Source: an uncultured Psychroserpens sp. (GTDB lineage: Bacteria; Bacteroidota; Bacteroidia; Flavobacteriales; Flavobacteriaceae). Taken from it: a DNA stretch of 64,000 nt. Location: positions 496,001 through 560,000 of the forward strand of contig CANKZZ010000002.1 in assembly GCA_947488655.1 (NCBI GenBank). The letters are read 5' to 3'. Below are positions 49,457 to 62,200 of the stretch, in pieces; within the stretch, counting starts at the first letter, position 1; each line of letters starts with the position of its first letter. The notes under the pieces were generated by a model. It did no database searches. It saw only the letters and a list, made by a program, of their open reading frames with translations, and was not told where the DNA came from. The position numbers were made by a program, and so were the translations under genes.

Positions 49457-50989
49457 TTAGTGCTTAAAATGACGTGTACCAGTCATTACCATTGCCACAT
49501 TATTCTTATTACAATAATCTATTGTTAATTGATCTTTTATAGATCCACCTGGTTGTATTACAGCAGTTATACCTGCATTATCTGCAATTTCTACACAATC
49601 TGGAAATGGGAAAAACGCATCACTCGCCATCACTGCACCTTTTAATTCAAAATTAAAAGACTTTGCTTTATGAATGGCTTGATTAAGCGCGTCTACACGA
49701 CTTGTTTGTCCTGTTCCACTCGCACATAATTGTTTGTTCTTTACTAGAACTATAGTGTTAGATTTAGTATGCTTACAAATTTTAGACGCGAAAATTAAAT
49801 CTTCTAGTTCACTTTGTGTAGGTTTAGTATTGGTGGCTTGCGTTAAATCTTCTTGGCGGTCTGTTTTATTATTTCTGTCTTGAACTAAAATTCCGTTTAG
49901 GCAAGTTCGTACAGTGGTTTGAGGAAATTCTACGTCGTGTAATACTAAAAGTATTCTGTTTTTCTTTCCTTTTAAAATCTCTAAAGCCTCTTCAGAAAAA
50001 GAAGGTGCTATGACCACTTCACAAAACAATGTGTGAATTTCTTCAGCAGTCGCCTTGTCAATTTCTGTATTAGAAATTAAAACACCTCCAAAGGCAGATA
50101 CAGGGTCTCCAGCTAATGCATCTACATATGCTTGATGGATTGTTTCGCGTTGTGCAAACCCACAAGCGTTATTATGTTTAAGGATGGCAAAAGCAGGAGC
50201 CTCGCCTTTAAATTCGTTTATTAAATTCACAGCTGCATCAACATCTAAGAGGTTGTTATAACTTAATTCTTTTCCGTGGAGCTTAGTGAATAAGTCATCA
50301 AAATTTCCGAAGAAAAAACCACGTTGATGAGGGTTTTCTCCATAGCGCAACACTTGACCTTTAGTTTCGCTAATTTTTAAAGATGCAATACTGTGATCTG
50401 CATTGAAATAGTTAAATATTGCCGAGTCATAGTGCGAGGACACATTAAAGGCTTTGGCAGCAAATTGCTTTCTATCAGCTTCAGAAGTTTCACCGTTTTT
50501 CGATTTTAAGAGTTCTAAAAACTCAGAATAGTCATCAACAGATGACACGCATATTACATCTGCATAGTTTTTTGCTGCTGCACGAATTAAAGAAATACCT
50601 CCAATATCAATCTTTTCAATTATATCCTGGTTGGCAGCACCAGAAGCTACAGTTTTTTCAAAAGGGTATAGATCTACAATTACGAGGTCTATTTGAGGGA
50701 TATCAAAATCTACCATTTCGGCAACATCTCCATCATGGTTTTGTCTATTTAAAATACCTCCAAAAACCTTTGGATGTAATGTTTTTACGCGACCACCAAG
50801 TATAGAAGGATATGATGTAACATCCTCAACAGGCACTACATTGATACCTAGGTCCTTGATAAATTTCTCTGTGCCACCTGTAGAGTAAATGGTAACATTT
50901 TGTGCGTCAAGTTGTTTAACGATAGGTGCTAATCCGTCTTTACTAAAAACCGATATTAATGCAGATTTGATTGTTTTGTTGTTGCTCAT
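49457..50989 (-). CDS. purH: Bifunctional AICAR formyltransferase / IMP cyclohydrolase
   Basis: The 510-residue enzyme catalyses the last two steps of de novo IMP synthesis. The N-terminal IMP cyclohydrolase (MGS-like) domain has 'ALISVFSKDGLAPIVKQLDAQNVTIYSTGGTEKFI', 'GGRVKTLHPKVFGGIL' and 'IDIGGISLIRAAAKNY'. The transformylase domain (~residues 200-510) has 'KHNNACGFAQRE', 'DPVSAFGGVLISN' and 'SDAFFPFPDCVEIADNAGITAVIQPGGSIKDQ'. The length is typical. It stands alone upstream of mreB, with a -7 box and an unusual A/C-rich leader. Confidence 0.98.
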   Translation of the reverse strand: MSNNKTIKSALISVFSKDGLAPIVKQLDAQNVTIYSTGGTEKFIKDLGINVVPVEDVTSYPSILGGRVKTLHPKVFGGILNRQNHDGDVAEMVDFDIPQIDLVIVDLYPFEKTVASGAANQDIIEKIDIGGISLIRAAAKNYADVICVSSVDDYSEFLELLKSKNGETSEADRKQFAAKAFNVSSHYDSAIFNYFNADHSIASLKISETKGQVLRYGENPHQRGFFFGNFDDLFTKLHGKELSYNNLLDVDAAVNLINEFKGEAPAFAILKHNNACGFAQRETIHQAYVDALAGDPVSAFGGVLISNTEIDKATAEEIHTLFCEVVIAPSFSEEALEILKGKKNRILLVLHDVEFPQTTVRTCLNGILVQDRNNKTDRQEDLTQATNTKPTQSELEDLIFASKICKHTKSNTIVLVKNKQLCASGTGQTSRVDALNQAIHKAKSFNFELKGAVMASDAFFPFPDCVEIADNAGITAVIQPGGSIKDQLTIDYCNKNNVAMVMTGTRHFKH

Positions 50990-51045
50990 TGTTGTGTAGT
51001 TGTAGTTGTGTTGTGAATTTTTGTTGTTTTGTAAAAATTAAAGGG

Positions 51046-51053
51046 CAAAAATA
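51046..51053 (-). promoter_or_regulatory. Possible -7 box of purH
   Basis: On the minus strand the sequence reads TATTTTTG (exact TAnnTTTG). The leader of about 50 bases after it is nearly free of G and made of ACAA/CAAC repeats (50990-51030), which should be unstructured. Confidence 0.5.
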
Positions 51054-51176
51054 CATAATATCAAAGCCTTATTTAAGTTGATTATGTAGTTTGTTTCAAA
51101 TTTTTGTAACAATAAATTGTTGAAAACGTCCTATATTTATATTTCTAGTAAGAAACTGGAAAAATAAACCAACTTT

Positions 51177-52424
51177 ATGCTTGTTTATCTTAGATTATTT
51201 AAAGAGAGTTTCTCGTTTGCTATCAACGCATTACGCAATAATAAACTGCGTACTTTTTTGTCGCTTTTAGGAATTACAATTGGTATCTTTTCTATAATTG
51301 CAGTATTAGCAGCAGTAGACTCTTTAGATAAAAGTATTAAAGACCAATTAAGTGGTTTAGATAAAAATACAATGTATTTAACAAAGTATTCTTTTGGACC
51401 AACCGATGTGCCTCGTTGGCAACGTGACAATTTCCCACAAACAGAGCATGACGACTATGAATTTATAGAACGCAACGTGCCAGATATAGACGCTATAGCT
51501 TATGTTATTTTTGGCAGTAGCCAAAATATAAAATTTGAGGGTAATACCGTGTCTGGTGTAAATATTACACCAGTTTCTAGTGGTATCTATGATATAGAAG
51601 GTTTAAAATTAGATGATGGTCGTTTTTATAGCGAGGCAGAGTCTAACTCTGGAGCTAATGTTATGGTAGTTGGTAGTGGTACAGCAACAAATCTTTTTGG
51701 GACTACTAACCCAATAGGGAAATCTGTTAGAGCTTACGGAAGAAAAATGACGGTTATTGGTGTACTTAAAAAAATGGGTAATGGATTAGGTGACTCTCCC
51801 GATGAGAAAGCATTTGTACCAGCAAATTTTGTAAGGCGTTTTCAAAATGGTGGTGCAGAAGGCTTACCAGGAGCAATAATTATAAAACCAGAAAAAGATA
51901 TAGATGTTGGCGCCTTTGAAGCAATTTTAAAACAAAAATATCGTGCTTTTAGAGGTTTAAAAGCAGATGAGCCAGATAACTTTTTTGTTAATAAAATTTC
52001 TGGATTACAAGATGCTATAGACGGAATTATATCAGGATTAAATTTTGCAGGTTGGATTATTAGTGGCTTTTCTCTATTGGTTGGAGGTTTTGGAATTGCA
52101 AATATTATGTTTGTTAGTGTGCGAGAGCGTACTAACCTAATTGGGATTCAAAAGTCGTTAGGAGCCAAAAATAAATTTATCTTATTTCAATTTCTTTTTG
52201 AAGCTGTAATATTATCTGTTCTGGGAGGATTAATTGGTATTGTGCTCGTTTGGTTAATATCATTGATAGCTAATGCTATGTTAGATTTTGAGTTTGTATT
52301 GTCCTTTTTTAATGTTTTCTTAGGTTTTGGACTTTCTACACTTATAGGTCTAATATCTGGAATTATTCCTGCAATTTCGGCAGCCAGATTAGATCCTGTT
52401 GAGGCAATTAGAACAGGGATGTAA
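51177..52424 (+). CDS. MacB-like ABC transporter permease
   Basis: The 415-residue protein has the MacB/FtsX permease layout: an N-terminal helix (FLSLLGITIGIFSIIAVLAAVDSL), a periplasmic MacB_PCD domain (~residues 50-270, including 'GRFYSEAESNSGANVMVVGSGTATNLFG' and 'GKSVRAYGRKMTVIGVL'), and three C-terminal helices of the FtsX type ('FGIANIMFVSVRERTNLIGIQKSLGAKNKFILFQFLFEAVILS', ending 'GIIPAISAARLDPVEAIRTGM'). No ATPase gene is adjacent, so its partner must be encoded elsewhere. The substrate is unknown; it is possibly an efflux or lipoprotein-handling system. Confidence 0.93.
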   Translation: MLVYLRLFKESFSFAINALRNNKLRTFLSLLGITIGIFSIIAVLAAVDSLDKSIKDQLSGLDKNTMYLTKYSFGPTDVPRWQRDNFPQTEHDDYEFIERNVPDIDAIAYVIFGSSQNIKFEGNTVSGVNITPVSSGIYDIEGLKLDDGRFYSEAESNSGANVMVVGSGTATNLFGTTNPIGKSVRAYGRKMTVIGVLKKMGNGLGDSPDEKAFVPANFVRRFQNGGAEGLPGAIIIKPEKDIDVGAFEAILKQKYRAFRGLKADEPDNFFVNKISGLQDAIDGIISGLNFAGWIISGFSLLVGGFGIANIMFVSVRERTNLIGIQKSLGAKNKFILFQFLFEAVILSVLGGLIGIVLVWLISLIANAMLDFEFVLSFFNVFLGFGLSTLIGLISGIIPAISAARLDPVEAIRTGM

Positions 52425-52430
52425 AATGCT

Positions 52431-52886
52431 TTAGATAATTGTAGCAACTTGCTCACATACAAACTCTAAAAAGCGTTCATCGTCTTGAGTAAATGGATCT
52501 GGAGTATTAGAGTCTATATCAATTTGTCCTATATTTTCTCCATTAACAAATATTGGGATTACAATTTCGGCTTTTACCGTAATGCTACAAGCTATATAGT
52601 TGTCTTGTGCAGCAACATCTGGTACTACGAAATTTTTATTAGAAACCGCAACTTGACCACAAATACCTTTTCCGAAGGGAATAATAGTATGATCTGTAGG
52701 TTCTCCAACGTAAGGGCCTAATTTAAGTTCGTTCTTATCTCCATTTTTAAAATAAAAACCTACCCAATTATAGTAATCTATATGGTTTTCAAGAAGTTTA
52801 CATATCGTTAATAAGCGTTCATCAACAGTTTTATTAGTGTCTGCTACTATCGTTGAAACTTGAGGTTTTAAGGTTTTAAAATTCAT
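52431..52886 (-). CDS. GAF domain protein, probable free methionine-(R)-sulfoxide reductase
   Basis: This 151-residue single GAF-domain protein resembles fRMsr (MsrC). 'YYNWVGFYFKNGDKNELKLGPYVGEPTDHTIIPFGKGICGQVAVSNKNFVVPDVAAQDNYIACS' contains the two cysteines expected from the fRMsr active-site loop (GKGICG, YIACS). The third position, usually Asp after the second Cys, is Ser. 'EIVIPIFVNGENIGQIDIDS' is conserved. It is convergent with the MacB-like permease (six-base gap). A pure ligand-binding GAF role cannot be excluded. Confidence 0.85.
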   Translation of the reverse strand: MNFKTLKPQVSTIVADTNKTVDERLLTICKLLENHIDYYNWVGFYFKNGDKNELKLGPYVGEPTDHTIIPFGKGICGQVAVSNKNFVVPDVAAQDNYIACSITVKAEIVIPIFVNGENIGQIDIDSNTPDPFTQDDERFLEFVCEQVATII

Positions 52887-52975
52887 AGGATTTAAAAATT
52901 TTGGTAAAAGTATTTAAAAAGTGCTATTTCTAGATTGATTTTGTATAATTTTAACTGAAGTAATCTATATTTTTT

Positions 52976-53527
52976 TTGAAAGCACTTTTTTTTAAATACA
53001 AATCTGTCGTAAAATTTATATTAACCTTTCTAACGGTTTATGTGGTTTTAACGATGGGATATAAATTGTATTTAGATTTTTCTGACGGAAGTAAATATTA
53101 TCCAGATTATCTCACTCATCTCGTAGCAAAACAAAGCGAAGCTGTAATTACTGCTATTGGTTATGATGCTAAAGTTGTGCCTCATCCCAATGAGCCATCA
53201 ATGAAATTATTAGTTAATTCTAAATTTGTTGCTAGAGTAGTAGAGGGTTGTAACTCTATAAGCGTCATCATTTTATTTGTATCGTTTATAATAGCATTTG
53301 CAGGTGAGTTTAAACCTACCTTTATTTATATATTATCTGGTAGTGTACTTATATATGTAGTTAATTTAGCACGTATTGCAATTTTATCTATTGGTTTATA
53401 TAATTACCCATGGCGACGAGATATTTTACATACTGTGATTTTTCCTTTAATTATTTATGGTATGGTTTTTTTATTATGGATGTTTTGGGTTAATCGGTTT
53501 TCTAAAAATAAAAGACATAATGCGTAA
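52976..53527 (+). CDS. xrtF: Exosortase F (XrtF)
   Basis: The 183-residue polytopic membrane cysteine protease/transpeptidase belongs to the exosortase/archaeosortase superfamily. The conserved Cys, Arg and His are visible as C92 ('RVVEGCNSISVIILFV'), R133 ('VVNLARIAILSIGLYNYP') and H152 ('RRDILHTVIFPLIIYG'). The start is a TTG at 52976; the next Met is inside the first helix. The following gene encodes its standard partner, with an 8-base overlap. The family sorts proteins with C-terminal signals, but I see no tripartite C-terminal target in this window. Confidence 0.92.
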   Translation: MKALFFKYKSVVKFILTFLTVYVVLTMGYKLYLDFSDGSKYYPDYLTHLVAKQSEAVITAIGYDAKVVPHPNEPSMKLLVNSKFVARVVEGCNSISVIILFVSFIIAFAGEFKPTFIYILSGSVLIYVVNLARIAILSIGLYNYPWRRDILHTVIFPLIIYGMVFLLWMFWVNRFSKNKRHNA

Positions 53528-53948
53528 TCCTATAACTTATATATTACTATTAGTTTTGTTTGGGCTGCTCGTTTTAATTAGGGCTTTTGAAAACGAATTA
53601 TTTTATGATCCATACCTTTTGTTTTTTAAAAGCGATTATCTACATATTGATTCTCCACGACGTGAGATTTTAAAATTATCACTATATACAACATGGCGTT
53701 ATATTTTAAATTCTAGTATTTCTTTAGGCATTATTTACTTGTTTTTTAAGGATAGATCTATTGTAAAATTCTCATTTATTATATTTTGTATTGCCTATAT
53801 CGTACTCATACTTTTTTACCTATATTTTGTAGTTAATCCAAGGCAAGAAGATTATTACTTGTTTTTTAATTTTAGACGATTTTTGATTCAGCCAATATTG
53901 TTACTACTCTTGGTGCCTGCATTTTTTTATTATAAGCTTAAGCAATAA
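53520..53948 (+). CDS. Exosortase F system-associated membrane protein
   Basis: The ~142-residue product has about four membrane helices (ITYILLLVLFGLLVLIRAF, YILNSSISLGIIYLFF, FSFIIFCIAYIVLILFYLYFVV, FLIQPILLLLLVPAFFYY). The frame extends back to 53457, but the ATG at 53520 (MRNPITY) gives the family N-terminus and an 8-base overlap with xrtF. 'ENELFYDPYLLFFKSDYLH' and 'NFRRFLIQPILLLLL' are typical of the XrtF-associated protein found next to XrtF in Flavobacteria. The function is unknown. Confidence 0.88.
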   Translation: MRNPITYILLLVLFGLLVLIRAFENELFYDPYLLFFKSDYLHIDSPRREILKLSLYTTWRYILNSSISLGIIYLFFKDRSIVKFSFIIFCIAYIVLILFYLYFVVNPRQEDYYLFFNFRRFLIQPILLLLLVPAFFYYKLKQ

Positions 53949-53994
53949 ACTGTTAATCAATCTATAATTGTTTTAGTGTTATTTTCTTTTTTTT

Positions 53995-54002
53995 AACTTT
54001 GC
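53995..54002 (+). promoter_or_regulatory. -7 box of the cysteine-rich metal operon
   Basis: TAACTTTG (exact TAnnTTTG) ends three bases before the ATG at 54006, with TTGTTTT (53969-53975) near the -33 position. The transcript would be leaderless or nearly so. Confidence 0.6.
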
Positions 54003-54005
54003 ATT

Positions 54006-54419
54006 ATGTTAACACAAATCTTGCATAAAACATTTTCTTTTATGATGGCAGTTTTACTGTTATTATCTACGGTATCATTTACGGTAGAAAAGCATTTTTG
54101 TGGAGATGTGTTAATTGATGTTGCAGTATTTAGTACAATTGAGAAATGTGCATCAGATGCTATTGATATAGACGAAGATCATGTTACAAAAAAGACGTGT
54201 TGTAAAGATACATTAGACGTAGTTGAAGGTCAAACTCAATTAACAGTAAAAAAGTTTGATGATTTAGACTTAGATCAACAGCAATTTTTTATTTCTTACA
54301 TATACGCATATAATGGTCTGTTTACAGTCTTAAAAAAACAGACAATACCTCACCAATATTATTTATCTCCACAACTTATAGCAGATATTCATTTGCTTGA
54401 TCAAGTGTTTTTAATTTGA
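54006..54419 (+). CDS. HYC_CC_PP family secreted protein
   Basis: This 137-residue product has a signal-like N-terminal helix (FSFMMAVLLLLSTVSFTV) directly followed by 'EKHFCGD' (H30-x-C32) and later 'KKTCCKD' (C65-C66), the H-[YF]-C and CC motifs that give the family its name. The terminal PP motif is reduced to 'YLSPQ'. The family is found in Bacteroidota close to TonB receptors and heavy-metal-associated proteins, as here. Paired cysteines and the N-terminal His suggest metal binding in the periplasm. It opens a four-gene operon. Confidence 0.88.
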   Translation: MLTQILHKTFSFMMAVLLLLSTVSFTVEKHFCGDVLIDVAVFSTIEKCASDAIDIDEDHVTKKTCCKDTLDVVEGQTQLTVKKFDDLDLDQQQFFISYIYAYNGLFTVLKKQTIPHQYYLSPQLIADIHLLDQVFLI

Positions 54420-54487
54420 TTTTTATTTATTTCTAAGATTTTTTAGAGACCAATTATGGTCCTATTAATAATTTTAAAATATATAAA

Positions 54488-55219
54488 ATGATACACACAT
54501 ATACAGTTACAGGCATGACCTGTAATGGCTGTAAGGCTTCAGTTGAAAAAGCTTTAAATACCTTAAAAAATGTTGAGGTAGTCTCAATAGATTTAGAAAC
54601 AGCAGAGGTTAAACTCGATTTAACTGCAGATGTTTCTACTGAAATTTTAAAACAAGCGTTACCGTCTAAATATTCTCTTTCTGTTAAAGAAAGCAAACCC
54701 TTGTCTAATACATTTTCCGAAGAGAATACAGATAACAACAACGAGTTAAGACAGTTGTTTCCCCTATTTCTAATTTTTGGCTATCTACTAGCTGCTTCTA
54801 TTTTAATTAATTTCAACATGTTTAATCTAGAGAATTTTATGCTAGATTTTATGGGATTGTTTTACATCGTTTTTAGCTTTTTTAAATTTTTAGATTTAAA
54901 TGGGTTTAAAGAAAGTTTTAAAATGTATGATCCATTAGCTAACAAGCAGCCAGCCTATGGTTGGGTTTACCCATTTATCGAGCTGTTATTAGGTGTAATG
55001 TTTTTAATGCGTGTACAGCTACCATTAGCTTTAATTGCTACAATTATAATTTTAGGAATTACCACTTTTGGTGTTACAAAAACCTTATTAAATAAAAAAT
55101 CAATACAATGCGCTTGTTTAGGTACTGCTTTAAAACTTCCAATGACAAAAGCGACATTTATTGAAAATAGTATTATGATAATCATGGCGATTATTATGCT
55201 ATTTAAAACCTACAATTAA
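54488..55219 (+). CDS. HMA domain fused to MauE/DoxX-like redox membrane protein
   Basis: The 243-residue fusion has, at residues 1-70, a heavy-metal-associated domain with 'GMTCNGCKASVEKALNTL' (CxxC) and then a linker to ~residue 85. The rest is a MauE-like four-helix membrane domain ('FLIFGYLLAASILINF', 'DFMGLFYIVFSFFKFLDLNGF', 'YPFIELLLGVMFLMRV', 'IATIIILGITTFGVTKTLL'). That domain has C208-x-C210 in 'IQCACLGTALKLPMTKATFIENSIMI', the usual redox Cys site of the family. It could pass a metal or electrons at the inner membrane. It lies one base before the TonB receptor gene. Confidence 0.9.
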   Translation: MIHTYTVTGMTCNGCKASVEKALNTLKNVEVVSIDLETAEVKLDLTADVSTEILKQALPSKYSLSVKESKPLSNTFSEENTDNNNELRQLFPLFLIFGYLLAASILINFNMFNLENFMLDFMGLFYIVFSFFKFLDLNGFKESFKMYDPLANKQPAYGWVYPFIELLLGVMFLMRVQLPLALIATIIILGITTFGVTKTLLNKKSIQCACLGTALKLPMTKATFIENSIMIIMAIIMLFKTYN

Positions 55220-55220
55220 A

Positions 55221-57461
55221 ATGAAAAAAATAATATATATAATTGTATTGTTACCATTAATCATGTTTTCTCAAGATAAAATCGATGGTATAATTACAGA
55301 AAAAATAGATGGAAATAAAACGTTTCCGTTGGCAGGAGCCAATGTGTTTTGGTTAGACACATCGGTAGGAGCTGTAACAGATATTGATGGAAAATTTAGT
55401 ATACCTTACCAACCAAGTTATACAAAGTTAATCATTAGTTATGTGGGCTTTAAAACAGATACCTTAACTATCACTAAACCAAAATTTATTAGGCATTTAC
55501 TCGAGGCAACAAGTGATTTGGATGAAATTACACTTACTGCTAGAAAACGTGCAACTACGAGATCTTACATGAGTTCTCAAAATATAATGACGATAAGTAG
55601 TGATGAGTTATTAAAAGCTGCATGCTGTAACTTGTCTGAAAGTTTTGAAACCAACCCGTCAATAGATGTTAATTTTTCTGATGCGGTCACAGGAACTCGT
55701 CAAATTAAAATGCTGGGATTAACAAGTAAGTATATTTTAATAACAACAGAAAATATACCGTCTATTCGTGGCGCATCGCAAGCTTATGGTTTAAGTTTTA
55801 TACCAGGCACATGGGTAGAGAGTATCCAAATTACAAAAGGAGCAGGAAGCGTTGTTAACGGATTTGAGAGTATTGCAGGACAAATTAATGCAGAGCTTCA
55901 AAAACCATCTAAAGATAACAAGTTCTTCTTAAATTTATATGGAGCAAGTAATCAACGCTTAGAGTTAAATACAAATTTTAATACTAAAGTAAGTGATAAA
56001 TGGAGTACAGGTTTTTATATACACGGTAATACACATCAAGAAAAACATGATGTAAATGATGATGGCTTTTTGGACATGCCACTATATAATCAAATTAATG
56101 TAATGAACCGCTGGCAATATACTAATCCAGAAAAAGGTTTGGTTAGTTTTATTAATGTACGTTATTTAAATGACCAAAAACAATCTGGAGAATTAAATTT
56201 TAATCCAGATACAGACCGTTTAACAACTAATGCTTGGGGAAGTGAGATTGACACAGAGCGTTTTGAGGTTTCAGCAAAATTAGGGTATGTAAATCCAGAA
56301 ATTCCTTGGCAAAGCTTAGGTGTGCAGTTTGCATTTAGTAATCATAATCAAGATTCATATTTTGGTTTAAATCAATATGATATAAATCATAATAGTATAT
56401 ATTCTAATGTTATTTACAACTCTATTATTAGTGATTCTAGGCATAAAATTAAAACAGGTTTAGGATTTACTTATGACCATTATGATGAGTTTGCTTTAGG
56501 TAATGATTTTGAGCGTAGTGAACGCTCTGCAGGTGCATTTTTTGAGTATGCGTACGATAATCTAGATAAGCTTACTATAACTGCAGGTTTACGTTTTGAT
56601 ACTCATAATTTATTGGGCGAGTTTATTACACCAAGATTGCATGCACGTTATACGCCTTGGGAGAAATCTGCATTTAGAGCATCTATTGGTAGAGGAAAAC
56701 GTAGTGCTAATATTTTTGCCGAAAATCAAAACATTTTTGCCACATCTAGATCTATTAATATTCTAGATACTAATGGTAGCATTTATGGGTTAGATCCAGA
56801 AATTGCATGGAATTATGGTGTATCGTATCTTCAAGGTTTTAATCTCTTCGGAAGAAAAGGAGACGTTACTTTTGATTATTACAGAACAGATTTTGAAAAC
56901 CAAGTTGTTGTCGATTGGGAAAACCCTCAAGAAGTCAATTTTTACAATCTAGAAGGCGATAGTTTTGCTAATAGTTTTCAGGTTGAATTAAATTATAATG
57001 TGTTTGAACAGTTTGATTTAAGGACTGCTTATAAGTATTATGATGTGCAAACCCAATATTTAACTGGTAAACTTGCAAAACCATTAATTCCTAAGCATCG
57101 TTTCTTTGCAAATGCATCTTATGAAACGCCTATTAATGATGATAAGTTGTCTCAATGGAAATTTGATGTGACCTATAATTGGTTAAGTGAGCAACGATTT
57201 TCATCAACAAGTACAAATCCTGAAGGTTTTAGACTTTCCGAAGAATCGCCAACCGTAGGTACTGTAAATTTGCAAGTAACTAAAGTATTCTCTCCTAAGT
57301 TTGAAGTATATTTGGGAGGAGAGAACGTCACAAACGTAAGACAAGATAATCCTATTTTGGGTGCAGATGATCCTTTTGGCTCAAATTTTGATACTACATT
57401 TGTATATGGGCCAATTTTTGGGAGCATGTATTATGCAGGTTTACGATATAAAATAAAGTAA
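55221..57461 (+). CDS. TonB-dependent receptor with CarboxypepD_reg-like N-terminal domain
   Basis: The 746-residue outer-membrane receptor has a signal peptide (IIYIIVLLPLIMFSQ), a CarboxypepD_reg-like domain (~residues 25-95), a plug (~100-220, ending 'GAGSVVNGFESIAGQINAELQKP') and a 22-strand-type barrel to the terminal 'MYYAGLRYKIK'. The plug contains an unusual adjacent cysteine pair, C135-C136, in 'ELLKAACCNLSESFETNPSIDVNF'. The flanking genes all carry paired cysteines or HMA domains, which argues for a metal or metal-complex substrate. There is no SusD partner. Confidence 0.94.
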   Translation: MKKIIYIIVLLPLIMFSQDKIDGIITEKIDGNKTFPLAGANVFWLDTSVGAVTDIDGKFSIPYQPSYTKLIISYVGFKTDTLTITKPKFIRHLLEATSDLDEITLTARKRATTRSYMSSQNIMTISSDELLKAACCNLSESFETNPSIDVNFSDAVTGTRQIKMLGLTSKYILITTENIPSIRGASQAYGLSFIPGTWVESIQITKGAGSVVNGFESIAGQINAELQKPSKDNKFFLNLYGASNQRLELNTNFNTKVSDKWSTGFYIHGNTHQEKHDVNDDGFLDMPLYNQINVMNRWQYTNPEKGLVSFINVRYLNDQKQSGELNFNPDTDRLTTNAWGSEIDTERFEVSAKLGYVNPEIPWQSLGVQFAFSNHNQDSYFGLNQYDINHNSIYSNVIYNSIISDSRHKIKTGLGFTYDHYDEFALGNDFERSERSAGAFFEYAYDNLDKLTITAGLRFDTHNLLGEFITPRLHARYTPWEKSAFRASIGRGKRSANIFAENQNIFATSRSINILDTNGSIYGLDPEIAWNYGVSYLQGFNLFGRKGDVTFDYYRTDFENQVVVDWENPQEVNFYNLEGDSFANSFQVELNYNVFEQFDLRTAYKYYDVQTQYLTGKLAKPLIPKHRFFANASYETPINDDKLSQWKFDVTYNWLSEQRFSSTSTNPEGFRLSEESPTVGTVNLQVTKVFSPKFEVYLGGENVTNVRQDNPILGADDPFGSNFDTTFVYGPIFGSMYYAGLRYKIK

Positions 57462-57480
57462 TAACAATAAATTAAATATT

Positions 57481-57852
57481 ATGAGATTAATAAATAAAAC
57501 AAAAAGCGCGCTACTAATTGTAATGATGTTAGTAACAACGATAACTTTTGCGCAAAATAAAAATGAGAGAGCTTCTATAGAAGTTGACGGTGTTTGTTTA
57601 ATGTGTAAAGATCGTATTGAGAAGGCAGCAATTAGGACGAAAGGCGTAAAATCTGCAATATGGAATGTAGATACACACGAACTCAAACTAATTTACGATG
57701 CTCGTAAAACAAATTTAGATTCTATTAGTAAAAAAGTAGCTTCTGTAGGTCATGATACCAAGATAATAAAAGCGACAGATGAAGCTTATAATTCTGTTCA
57801 TCCTTGTTGTAAATATAGAGATGAAGAAATAATTGGAGATCATAAAAACTAA
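57481..57852 (+). CDS. Periplasmic heavy-metal-associated (HMA) protein
   Basis: The 123-residue product has a signal peptide (to ~FAQ25) and an HMA fold whose metal loop is 'VDGVCLMCKDRIEKAAI' (C39-x2-C42), with a second cysteine pair at the C-terminus (HPCCKYRD, C109-C110). It is probably a soluble periplasmic metallochaperone. It follows the TonB receptor by 19 bases and closes the operon before a terminator. Confidence 0.88.
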   Translation: MRLINKTKSALLIVMMLVTTITFAQNKNERASIEVDGVCLMCKDRIEKAAIRTKGVKSAIWNVDTHELKLIYDARKTNLDSISKKVASVGHDTKIIKATDEAYNSVHPCCKYRDEEIIGDHKN

Positions 57853-57863
57853 AGATGATGAAT

Positions 57864-57892
57864 AAGCCTAAATTTTAATTTAGGCTTTTTTT
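57864..57892 (+). terminator. Intrinsic terminator of the metal operon
   Basis: AAGCCTAAAT/ATTTAGGCTT (10-bp stem, four-base loop) is followed by TTTTTTT, 11 bases after the HMA gene stop. Confidence 0.88.
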
Positions 57893-57965
57893 ATACCTTA
57901 ATTCTACGCAACCTTTTTATCCATAGAAAGACTATAGGTAAAGACGTTTAATTAAAAATATATAC

Positions 57966-58865
57966 ATGATGAAAAATTACTCAAAATTACTTATTTTACT
58001 TTTAATATCAATTGTTATAAGCGCATGCGATGACGAATCTATGAATAATCCTGTAGAAGATTCGAGTGATTTAGTTGAAATACAAGAAACATTAAATGGA
58101 GCCACAACTGCAAATTATATTATCAATAATGATTTAAATACCCAAATAATGTATGCTGGTGGTAATTACAATAATCAGCAATTTACTGATGGGCTAATGA
58201 CATCGTCAGATTTTTATGATGCAAATAACAATTTAACAGGACGACAAAAATTTCAATACGATGCGTCTAAAAGATTAATAAGTAAATCTAATTATGAGGT
58301 TGAAGGAGCGTCTTTTGTTTTAAATAGTGAAATAAACTTTGTCTATACTGTAAATGAAATTTCTTCAACGCAAATCAATTATAATATTGATGGGACAATT
58401 TCATCTACCTATCAGCCTAACATTTTTACACTCAACTCAAATAATGAAATTATAAAATTTGAAGATTTCAATTTTGGGGGTTTTTGGGAGGCAACTTATA
58501 CTAATGGCAATTTAGCTACGATAAATGTTAATGGTTATGGTAATAAGGATGGTATTGGTACTTTTTCTTACACGAATCAAATAGCTGCAAACGCATATCA
58601 AAAAGAAAAATTTAGATTTGGGCCACAATGGAAAATAAACATTATGTTGCATAATCAGGTTGGTGGTTTTTCTTTCAAACAATTAGCCGAATTGGGATCA
58701 AATTTTCTTTCGGGTTATTCTCATGTGGCATCAGACGGAAGTAATGTAGTTTCTTTAACTGTAGATTATGAGTTTGATAGTCAACAGAGACTTATCACGC
58801 AAACTAAAAATAAATTATTTTATACATCTCCAACTAATTACGTCATAACCTATACATATGAATAA
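57966..58865 (+). CDS. Hypothetical lipoprotein
   Basis: The 299-residue product has a lipobox at Cys21 (LLISIVISACDDES) and an Asp-rich linker. The mature part resembles YD-repeat-like or DUF4595-like beta strands ('DANNNLTGRQKFQYDASKRLISKSNYEVEG', 'NSNNEIIKFEDFNF', 'EFDSQQRLITQTKNKLFYTSPTNYVITYTYE'). It is probably surface or periplasmic. I cannot assign a function. It is a single gene with a terminator. Confidence 0.8.
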   Translation: MMKNYSKLLILLLISIVISACDDESMNNPVEDSSDLVEIQETLNGATTANYIINNDLNTQIMYAGGNYNNQQFTDGLMTSSDFYDANNNLTGRQKFQYDASKRLISKSNYEVEGASFVLNSEINFVYTVNEISSTQINYNIDGTISSTYQPNIFTLNSNNEIIKFEDFNFGGFWEATYTNGNLATINVNGYGNKDGIGTFSYTNQIAANAYQKEKFRFGPQWKINIMLHNQVGGFSFKQLAELGSNFLSGYSHVASDGSNVVSLTVDYEFDSQQRLITQTKNKLFYTSPTNYVITYTYE

Positions 58866-59227
58866 TAGTGTTATTTAAATATAATCTAATAGTATAGATT
58901 TAAACTTTATAATAGACTCTAAAAAAGACCTTTGAAATATATCAAAGGTCTTTTTTGTGTTAACATACTCTATTTAAAATAACTTGATTACTAGAAGATT
59001 AACGTTTTTGGTTCTTAATATTAACACATTCAATACGATTAGTAGGAAAAGACTTTAATAATCAGACGCTTAAACGAAAAAATACGCATTTTAAAGTTTT
59101 TTTAGATTTTTCTCAGTAAGATTGTAATGCCCTATAGTCTAATAGATTGCAATTTTTATCGGTTGCTTTTATTTTTTTAACTAAGCTTATTAAAAATAAG
59201 CTTTTACATAAATTTAGTTATATCATT
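58866..59227 (+). other. Intergenic region and possible leader of the T9SS protein gene
   Basis: The gap of 362 bases has no gene. It holds the terminator at 58921-58956 and then AT-rich sequence without a clear promoter box. A perfect 9-bp inverted repeat AAGCTTATT-AAA-AATAAGCTT (59183-59203) lies 24 bases before the ATG at 59228. It could be an attenuator-like or mRNA-stabilising leader hairpin. Confidence 0.5.
58921..58956 (+). terminator. Intrinsic terminator after the 57966 lipoprotein
   Basis: The 15-bp perfect stem AAAAAAGACCTTTGA/TCAAAGGTCTTTTTT has a six-base loop. Confidence 0.9.
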
Positions 59228-62200
59228 ATGAACTCAATCTCTAAGACCTACTTAGCTTTAATTTTAACAATTTCATTTGCGTCCTATTCTCAAAGTCCGG
59301 GAAATATACCCATAGGTTTACAACTATGGCTAAAAGCAGATCAAGGTGTAACAGTAACTGGTTCTAATGTAAATTCTTGGACAGATCAATCATTAAATGG
59401 TTTTGTTGGAGTTTCTCAAGGGGCTTTAGATGCACAATTAGTTACTAATGGACTTAACAACAATCCTGTTCTAAATTTTAATGGTAGCAATTTTTATAAT
59501 TATGGTTCGCCAGTTTTATTAGATATTTCTCCAGGATTACAACCAATGTCAATACTATCTGTAGTTAAGTCTAACAATGCAAATGGAGGCACTGTAATTG
59601 CAAAAGGAAATAATACCACAAGAAATTTTCAGCAATGGTTTGATGATACGCATAGAGTAGCAAATTACACATTAGGTAAAAGTCCTTTAGCTGGAGGTAG
59701 AAAATCAGGCACATTCCATGTACGTAATGAAGCCAAATTAAATACTGGTCTTGTATCTATATTACCAGATCCAATGTTAAAATTAACATCTTACGTTAAT
59801 GGTTTGGTTGATGCGTCTCACTTAAATGATGGAACAGGATTGGGTAGTACTAGTGCTACAGACGTTTTAGTAGGAGCAAGAAGAAATATTGCTAATACAG
59901 GATCTGCACAGCAATTTCATGGAGACATTGCAGAAATAATCGTTTACAATAGAGAACTTACAATTTTAGAGTTGCAGCAGGTAGAATCATATTTAGCGCT
60001 TAAATACGGTATTACCTTAGGAGCAAATGATGAACTTTGGGACTCTAATACGAGTACAAGTTCTACCTTAGCATATTCTGGTACTAGCAGTAATTACTAT
60101 GATTCTCAAGGTGCCATTATCTGGCAAGGTGCTAGTAATTCTGGTTTTGGACATAATGTAATTGGTATAGGTAGGGATGACTTATCTGGACTATTTCAAA
60201 CTAAATCTACCAGTTCTAGTGTTACTACAGAGAGTATTTTAACTATAGAAGGAGAGATTGGAAGTTTTAGTTCTGACCACAGTTTATTAGTAATTGGAAG
60301 TAATGGAGCTTCAACGTCTCTAACTACCACAGGTGCTCCGGAGAGAACATCATCAACTATGAGTAGATTATGGAAAGTGAACGAGCTATTAACTGAAACA
60401 GGTTTAATAAAATTAGAATTTGATTTATCTACAACAACTATTACAGATGCAGAAGCTTCAAATTTAGATTTATATGTTGCAGATGATGCGAGTTTAAGTA
60501 ATTATAAAAACTATCCAGGATCATATAATGCAGCAACAAAAATATTGACTTACAACTTAATTAACTTAGATGATGGTCAGTTTTTTACCTTGGCAACTCC
60601 AAATGTTTTTGTTGGTTCATTTTCACTTCTTTTTGACGGTGTAGACGATGTTATTGACACAGGCTTAGATTTAAGTGGTTTGCCAGAAGTAACAATAATG
60701 TGTTGGATAAAACGAACAAATGACACCGAGTTATTACAAACAGGTATTATTGGCCAGCCAGGAGTTTTTGGTTTATCTGTATTAGGAGATGATTTAAGTG
60801 TTGATTTTGCGGGTAATATTATTGGAGGTTTAAATTTAACTCAAACGAGTATTGGTAACGATGCCCAAACATGGCATCATATAGCGTCAACATTTAAAAA
60901 CGGAACTGTAAAAATGTATTTTGATGGAGATTTAGTAGATACTGTTGTTGATGTGTTAGGTAACTCTGTTCTTGGATTAGCAACTGCTGCAACTTTCAAT
61001 ATCGGAGGAAATGTAACTTCATTATTAGGAGGCGATAATTTTGATGGAGAAATTGATGAAGTAAGAGTATTTACTAAGGCATTAGAAGATGAGCAGATAC
61101 AGCAAATGGTATATCAAGAAATCCAAGATGTTGCTGGCAATGTTGTAGGAAGTGTTATTCCAAAAGAGGTAAAAGATCATACTACTAATTCTACTGTAGA
61201 TTGGTCTAGTCTTAATTTATACTATACTTTAAATGTATTAAGAGGTAATTGTATTGTAGATGGATCAGATAATTTAGTCAATGGTTTTGCACAAAATATT
61301 TCTTCAAGTTCTATCTTAACTCAAACAGCTCCAATGCCATATATATCGTCTAACGATGGTAATTGGACAGATGCAACAACATGGGAGCATGGAAGTGCTT
61401 GGGATATAGTAAACCTACCAAACAAAGATTGGTCTATTGTGCATATCAAAGACAGTGTAACAACTGCAGCATCTCATAAACATTTAGGCTTAATTATAGA
61501 TGACAATAAGCACTTAGTTGTAGAGGGAACAAATGAGATTAGTAATACATGGTATTTACAACTTAACGGTACTTTAGATTTAAAAGAAGATTCTCAATTA
61601 GTACAAACAAATTTAAGTGACCTTGACATAACGAGTGCTGGTAAAATTTTAAGAAGACAAGAAGGGACTTCAAATATGCATCGTTATAATTATTGGAGTT
61701 CTCCAGTTGGTGCACAAAATACGACGTCAAATAATAACGATTTTAGTTTATCAATGCTTAAAGATGGCGATGGTGATATCCAATTTGTAAATACGTATGA
61801 TGTAACACCAACAACTCCAGCTACATTGAGTACCAGGTGGCTTTATACTTATGCAAACGGTTTAACCTATTATGATTGGCAAGCATTCAGCGAAACTACT
61901 AATTTGCCTGCAGGAACCGGTTATACGCAAAAAGGACCAGGATTAGCAGGTGCAGAGCATCAATATATATTTTCGGGAAAACCTAATAATGGAGAAATTT
62001 TAATTAATGTGCTAGATGTAGGAGGAGCTGGCTCTGAACCAGATGTATCAAAAACAGATTATCTATTTGGCAATCCTTATCCGTCTGCTATAGACGCACA
62101 CCAATTTATAGACGATAATGCAGGCGTTTGTGATGGTGTTATTTATTTATGGGAACAATGGTCTGGAGATAGTCATATACTTAATGAGTATGATGGTGGC

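Follow-up and report, generated by a model that had tools for sequence, protein, structure and literature searches.

A four-gene operon of an uncultured Psychroserpens species is rather likely to encode a copper-handling TonB-dependent transport system that is widespread in Bacteroidota. It is found at positions 54,006 to 57,852 of the window, i.e. the whole stretch of 64,000 nucleotides that was analysed (contig CANKZZ010000002.1, positions 496,001 to 560,000), and comprises genes for a HYC_CC_PP protein, an HMA-MauE fusion protein, a TonB-dependent receptor with two adjacent cysteines (CC) in its plug and a predicted periplasmic HMA protein. The evidence consists of a gene set that is conserved among relatives, cysteines that are invariant, natural fusions of HMA domains to the receptor, and copper genes among the neighbours.

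Invariant cysteine pairs in the four proteins

The four open reading frames (ORFs) are all located on the plus strand and are separated by gaps of 68, 1 and 19 bases. The first gene (54006..54419, +) encodes a HYC_CC_PP protein of 137 amino acids with an N-terminal hydrophobic segment, an HFC motif (residues 30-32), C48 and a CC pair (65-66), which scores 114.5 bits against the model NF047658 (cut-off 28). It is followed by the HMA-MauE fusion of 243 amino acids (54488..55219, +), in which an HMA domain like that of CopA is joined to about five membrane segments with a CxC motif at residues 208-210 (Pfam HMA 42.9 bits, cut-off 24.8; MauE 65.3 bits, above its cut-off). The receptor of 746 amino acids (55221..57461, +) consists of a CarboxypepD_reg-like domain, a plug with the vicinal pair C135-C136 (AACCNLSESFET; codons at 55623..55628, +, as read from the sequence and the ORF coordinates) and a barrel; with the Plug domain (PF07715, 35.9 bits, cut-off 23.9) in front of the barrel domain (PF00593, 84 bits, cut-off 27) it belongs to the TonB-dependent receptor superfamily. 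The last gene (57481..57852, +) codes for the HMA protein of 123 amino acids, which has a signal peptide-like N-terminus, a CxMC motif (39-42) and a CCxY motif (109-110) and scores 28 bits against the same HMA cut-off of 24.8. Both HMA domains carry a CxxC motif, C39xxC42 in the HMA protein and C12xxC15 in HMA-MauE, and the CopZ models with their cut-off of 91 bits were missed by both (best scores 42.4 for HMA-MauE and 27 for the HMA protein). The original prediction, made from the sequence of the window alone, that four consecutive genes carry paired cysteines is thus confirmed with regard to ORFs, family names and cysteines.

Altogether 14 cysteines are present in the four proteins, and every one of them is invariant in the alignments made: C32, C48, C65 and C66 of HYC_CC_PP in 52 sequences, C12, C15, C208 and C210 of HMA-MauE in 18 sequences, C39, C42, C109 and C110 of the HMA protein in 26 sequences, and C135 and C136, the only two cysteines of the receptor, in alignments of 49 and 13 receptors. 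Judged from the sequences, the cysteine pattern is more than chance, because each of the 14 residues is invariant in its own alignment. Outside these alignments the HMA cysteines vary, as exemplified by a Parabacteroides HMA protein that keeps the CxxC motif and lacks the second CC.

The plug pair was found in 149 of 150 sequences of the receptor family, the remaining one being truncated before the site. For 80 named loci the search patterns included KAACCNLS, and these were excluded from the count of conservation; the other 70 sequences (69 distinct, the window receptor included) were found by whole-protein or profile searches, in which the CC was still part of the query, and all 70 contain the pair. 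The boundary of the family was set by score, with at least 487 bits inside and at most 369 bits outside. Of the 50 places above this boundary 40 were fetched, the window not being one of these, and of the 53 below it 20. The CC is absent at this plug site from those 20 nearest other receptors below the score gap. No other receptor column contains more than 10% cysteine among the columns filled to at least 80% in 147 distinct sequences.

Gene set across Bacteroidota

In 110 loci, mostly from Flavobacteriaceae and 30 of them with flanks of 1.5 kb only, an HMA gene was found 103 times, a HYC_CC_PP gene 96 times and an HMA-MauE gene 48 times. Among the 40 phylum-wide diverse loci, a HYC-like gene is located within 1.2 kb of the receptor in 37, 26 of them identified by profile alone and the others by a looser rule (a small, Cys-rich exported protein encoded upstream), which also applies to 73 of 851 ORFs in this size range. 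An HMA domain stands beside the receptor or is fused to it in 26 of these loci, and 39 have at least one of the two, HYC-like gene or HMA. The 20 control receptor loci gave no such gene by profile and one by the looser rule. One of the 40 loci (L179, G181:C2) contains a CC receptor gene that is split by an in-frame stop and was counted. The plug cysteines are hence co-conserved with the HYC_CC_PP and HMA genes, and the refuting case named with the original prediction, plug cysteines that vary among receptors in the same gene context, was not found.

Related receptors also occur in four records of a plasmid collection. The plug CC is present in all three that were read, from Parabacteroides distasonis, Bernardetia and Haliscomenobacter, and in the first two a HYC-like gene and an HMA gene lie beside the receptor. 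In Haliscomenobacter, an HMA-like gene without CxxC is located upstream of the CC receptor and a CusA/CzcA gene further downstream. The Parabacteroides distasonis record (L234, NZ_OY725762.1) is labelled plasmid, yet its metH, ftsK and smpB genes look chromosomal. Furthermore, the variant receptors L173, L175 and L236 have the sequence ACCDLAGCF and an HMA-like neighbour without CxxC.

HMA-receptor fusions and the position of the plug pair

In four distinct receptors (L028, L029/L149, L153 and L158) an HMA domain with CxxC and CCxY forms the N-terminus of the receptor itself, and a separate HMA gene was not found in the stretches of these loci. The L029/L149 fusion contains two HMA copies in tandem, one of the fusions has a long His-rich linker, and on a tree of 60 rows a minimum of three changes is needed to explain the fused state. 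Fusion partners usually act together and the N-terminus of a TonB receptor is periplasmic; hence, the HMA domain is expected to act on the periplasmic side of the plug. A different arrangement was seen in Olleya (L043), where the HMA domain of HMA-MauE and the receptor share one reading frame that includes an internal signal-like segment, an arrangement resembling a deletion of MauE; this case was left out of the fusion count.

The alignment with the solved receptor 9gbc, which is significant, places the plug CC just before the helix leading into the ligand-facing loops, a helix that we take to be on the periplasmic side in solved receptors. The pair is located about 30 residues past the guessed Ton box (the segment around LDEITLTA). 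The plug ligand Cys143 of OprC, which binds copper from outside, is found about 70 residues after the Ton box, according to the OprC report (PMC8610252). Given the 9gbc alignment, the spacing of the OprC cysteine and the N-terminal HMA fusions, the CC probably lies on the periplasmic side and serves as an exit station. The suggestion that the plug makes its first contact with the substrate at this pair is not supported, since the CC aligns ahead of this helix and the fusions point to the periplasm.

Copper as the most likely metal

The genes next to the receptor and next to other HYC_CC_PP genes point to copper. In four loci a P-type ATPase gene stands immediately before the receptor, in the place otherwise held by HMA-MauE, and in a fifth it stands one gene further away. 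The ATPases of L070 and L101 score 604.6 and 581.5 bits against the copper model TIGR01511 (cut-off 397), and the N-terminal HMA domain of the L070 ATPase is 38% identical over 71 residues to that of HMA-MauE. HMA-MauE (48 loci) and ATPase (5 loci) never occur together in the 110 loci. Moreover, DUF326/Csp1-like and DUF3347 proteins are encoded near some receptor loci, the Csp1 model itself staying below its cut-off.

HYC_CC_PP genes away from the receptor were analysed at 20 hand-picked loci, of which L221 was dropped as it had no HYC_CC_PP by profile. In 14 of the remaining 19, this genome included, the gene directly precedes a CusA-like gene of the resistance-nodulation-division (RND) type, and in three further loci it lies within three genes of a split CusA-like RND gene. 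The HYC-linked RND protein of this genome passes the CusA/CzcA model and aligns best with solved CusA; two genes after its gene, a copper_res_A-like oxidase scoring below the cut-off is encoded. Three positions that line up with methionines of CusA, presumably its copper-relaying ones, are occupied by Met in 14 of 14 HYC-linked RND proteins, whereas the island's second RND protein has His, Ile and Glu there. This metal island of the same genome (L206, G000:C2:321000-338000, together with L229 and L232) comprises HYC_CC_PP, the CusA-like RND gene, the oxidase and a DUF3347-type protein, and further a zinc/cadmium-type ATPase, the second RND gene, a CopA-looking ATPase and CusB-like and HMA genes. 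A CusB-like DUF3347-type gene located in this contig region is followed by a gene for an HMA protein with the CxMC...CCKY pattern. HYC_CC_PP was found in 33 of 50 genomes with a CC receptor versus 26 of 148 without (hand count). As a receptor-specific family HYC_CC_PP was rejected, because it occurs in those 26 genomes lacking the receptor and mostly precedes CusA-like genes at the off-receptor loci.

Collectively, copper is most likely the metal, because of the ATPase in the place of HMA-MauE, the HYC_CC_PP genes in front of CusA-like pumps and the conserved methionines; silver is indistinguishable from copper here. From the wider class of thiophilic metals proposed at first, the neighbours thus favour copper, and for zinc and mercury no model exceeded its cut-off in the operon. 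The statement that neither a P-type ATPase nor a regulator is nearby needs to be qualified. A search of the own genome with HMA gave no HMA-bearing ATPase in the window, ATPases without HMA domain not being searched for, and no regulator gene was seen beside the operon in the ORF list for 50000-62000; an 838-residue open frame with HMA, CopA-looking by appearance, is nevertheless found together with the Cus-type island about 150-175 kb before the window start on the same contig. A link between the receptor and heme-copper oxidases was also considered and dropped, as COX1 is present in 189 of 198 genomes and the test has no power.

HMA-MauE as a probable accessory protein

HMA-MauE was rejected as a fixed inner-membrane partner, since it is absent from 62 of the 110 loci and present in one of the 40 diverse loci. 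Its membrane segments were taken from a hydropathy plot. In 18 sequences the loop with the CxC motif (residues 197-220) has on average 4.2 K+R versus 0.7 D+E; the loops 108-116 and 177 have 0.6 and 0.1 K+R, and loop 136-157 is neutral with 2.6 K+R versus 2.8 D+E. Because of the charge of its loop compared with the other loops, the CxC motif most likely faces the cytoplasm as does the HMA domain, so that no cysteine of this protein would face the periplasm. We read HMA-MauE as an accessory copper-thiol protein, which by itself does not establish a relay across the inner membrane; given its patchy distribution and the most likely cytoplasmic CxC, the fixed part in a relay spanning two membranes, which the original prediction had assigned to it, is not supported.

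Putative promoter and upstream genes

Four bases 5' of the HYC_CC_PP start codon, the box TAACTTTG (53994..54001, +) was read from the sequence, a putative -7 promoter box of the Bacteroidota type. The pattern TAnnTTTG is present within about 60 bases upstream of 65 of the 96 HYC_CC_PP genes at receptor loci. Because of this box close to the first start codon, the four genes probably form one operon with its own promoter, separate from the exosortase genes. The exosortase XrtF and its associated membrane protein are encoded directly upstream (52976-53948), and the XrtF gene of the same cluster is found in the neighbourhood at 47 of the 80 named loci. No regulator gene adjoining the operon was seen on inspection of the ORF list from 50000 to 62000.

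Around -50 to -60 upstream of HYC_CC_PP, a GTTAA-containing element was found in 65 of 96 receptor-locus genes versus 179 of 1101 control upstreams, which were not matched for promoters. It also occurs before some HYC_CC_PP genes directly preceding CusA-like genes, and in exosortase contexts it can overlap the stop of the preceding gene. A motif obtained by expectation maximisation exceeded its threshold in 19 of the 36 training upstreams, in 9 of the 51 from exosortase contexts and in 5 of the 19 belonging to off-receptor HYC_CC_PP genes; 55 of the 1101 controls pass this threshold (5% by construction), and the motif was kept as a hint only.

Discussion

Our data suggest the following model of copper handling. 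The receptor would take up copper, free or chelated, with energy provided by TonB, and the metal would leave through the plug past the vicinal cysteine pair on the periplasmic side. There, the periplasmic HMA chaperone with its CxxC and CCxY motifs could collect it by thiol exchange. HYC_CC_PP might be an exported and probably membrane-anchored Cys-rich partner, which probably buffers periplasmic copper or passes it on, because the family also goes with Cus-type copper efflux. HMA-MauE would be an optional cytoplasm-facing copper-thiol protein of the inner membrane, in the place held by a copper-type ATPase in some relatives. We infer copper as the substrate, its binding by these proteins, the direction of import, the position of the CC on the periplasmic side and the sequence of the transfer steps. 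We know of no TonB receptor with such a hand-off built into its plug, and this specific part of the model is regarded as tentative, with slightly less than an even chance of being right. In a bolder variant, the same relay may run outwards.

Several observations weigh against this model or parts of it. An HMA domain was not detected in 14 of the 40 diverse loci, and in L173, L175 and Haliscomenobacter the HMA-like neighbour, recognised by eye, lacks CxxC and the receptor keeps its CC. The ATPases of L070 and L101 also pass the cadmium model, with scores below those for copper, and do not reach the cut-off for CopA equivalogs, and the ATPase directly before the second HYC_CC_PP gene of this genome, outside the window, is of the zinc/cadmium type (508 versus 313.5 bits, below the copper cut-off). 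The plug match to 5fr8 agrees on the place of the CC, but it is not significant (i-Evalue 13). AlphaFold2 gave blocks with a pLDDT of 21-39 in residues 101-230 of the receptor; neither this model nor that of HYC_CC_PP (pTM 0.32) was used for any claim. Parabacteroides distasonis, an anaerobe, possesses a CC receptor with HYC-like and HMA genes, which speaks against a purely oxidase-linked copper supply. Finally, the HYC_CC_PP and HMA types are common to efflux operons and would fit copper tolerance as well.

The last point leads to an explanation that we consider unlikely but take as a live rival, namely that receptor, HMA protein and HYC_CC_PP are made under copper excess as a tolerance module, in which the receptor imports other cargo, for example iron or a compound that binds copper, and this cargo protects the cell or replenishes the cuproproteins of the periplasm. 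The HYC_CC_PP and HMA proteins of Cus-type operons are consistent with it, and a precedent exists in Caulobacter, where the iron-importing receptor CciT is needed for copper resistance, as stated in PMC12004943. The GTTAA element before receptor-locus HYC_CC_PP genes and the passing of the motif before some off-receptor ones would likewise fit it, but this motif evidence is weak, as 5% of the controls pass by construction. The receptor's own invariant cysteine pair and its fusion to a thiol metal-binding domain rather fit metal as the cargo, and most of the receptor operons read lie outside efflux islands, with a CusA-like RND gene in one of the 40 diverse receptor stretches (L169) and an ATPase in 5 of the 80 named loci. 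TonB receptors import, and copper import is favoured over tolerance.

Two further explanations appear quite improbable, each to about the same degree. The cysteine pairs and MauE could serve thiol-disulfide redox exchange of electrons or disulfides in the envelope, with metal binding being secondary. MauE/DoxX-type proteins are often named redox-associated, and this genome also encodes a MauE protein that lacks HMA and carries a like CxCFG motif (CGCFG); however, copper is indicated by GMTCxxC in the HMA domains and by the exchange of HMA-MauE for copper-type ATPases, HMA-MauE is missing from more than half of the 110 loci while the CC stays, and no thioredoxin-like protein was found among the operon clusters typed, which are not all of them. 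Alternatively, the receptor could be dedicated to another thiophilic metal (zinc, mercury or silver) or to a metal-free substrate. HMA domains occur in Zn/Cd and Hg proteins too, MerTP and ZntA models give sub-threshold matches in the operon, the zinc/cadmium-type ATPase precedes the second HYC_CC_PP gene of this genome, and silver would look the same as copper. Against this, no zinc or mercury model exceeds its cut-off in the operon (mer, zur and znu genes were not searched for), the receptor-locus ATPases that were typed fit the copper model best, and the 14 HYC-linked RND proteins keep the CusA methionines.

The preferred reading, copper uptake through the CC receptor, can be compared with known systems. 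OprC/NosA of Pseudomonas is likewise a TonB receptor proposed to carry copper, and a cysteine of its plug takes part in handling the metal. Its copper site combines a CxxxM motif of the plug with an HxM motif of the barrel (PMC8610252), whereas the window receptor has neither motif, carries its CC earlier in the plug and is accompanied by HMA and HYC_CC_PP partners. CrtA of Bordetella and Pseudomonas is a copper TonB receptor with a conserved operon as well; according to PMC12914433 it has no conserved cysteine and is followed by a PepSY_TM gene in more than 75% of loci. The window receptor, in contrast, has two invariant cysteines, and its operon partners are HYC_CC_PP, HMA-MauE and HMA proteins instead of PepSY_TM. 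Bacteroidota Cus-type efflux operons share HYC_CC_PP, the CxMC...CCxY HMA protein (in this genome) and DUF3347 proteins with the receptor loci, but no RND pump is encoded in the receptor operon of the window, where a TonB receptor is the outer-membrane component. MerT/MerP and MerTP resemble the operon in combining a periplasmic HMA protein with an inner-membrane protein that has a CxC loop. They differ in that the membrane part is MauE in the window, no periplasm-facing cysteine pair is predicted and the context is one of copper; the MerTP_fusion model (cut-off 180 bits) reached 34.3 bits and matched nothing but the HMA part of HMA-MauE, and the MerT membrane domain was not detected in it.

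The nearest receptors by profile score are other Bacteroidota receptors with a CxxC in the plug (DCAVCGTNNIRINGMEG), a plug cysteine pair being present in 17 of the 20 read. Their pair is located elsewhere, further on in the plug, and no HMA or HYC_CC_PP was found by profile in the 20 loci. By eye, some of these receptors (L186-L202, e.g. DCAVCGTNNIRINGMEGP and NCNVCNTGDIHINGLEGP) are near a regulator-like gene of 217-220 amino acids and thioredoxin-like genes.

A description of this receptor family or operon was not found in the open literature searched, nor did the name HYC_CC_PP appear in any paper there. A survey of copper genes in Bizionia argentinensis from 2024 names an OprC-like receptor and states that its motif is missing from the other receptors (PMC11213822); beyond this proposal, the open literature searched contained no account of copper transport across the outer membrane of Bacteroidota. 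A paper on Riemerella ZntR names many receptors by locus tag, which could not be tied to this family (PMC11960050). Hence, the receptor operon most likely represents a new variant of TonB-dependent copper transport and an undescribed route of copper across the outer membrane.

The receptor family with its invariant plug cysteine pair and natural chaperone fusions provides a directly testable candidate for a copper route, and the gene context suggests a role for the HYC_CC_PP family. If the model is true, the family would illustrate the direct delivery of a toxic metal from a TonB receptor to a chaperone.

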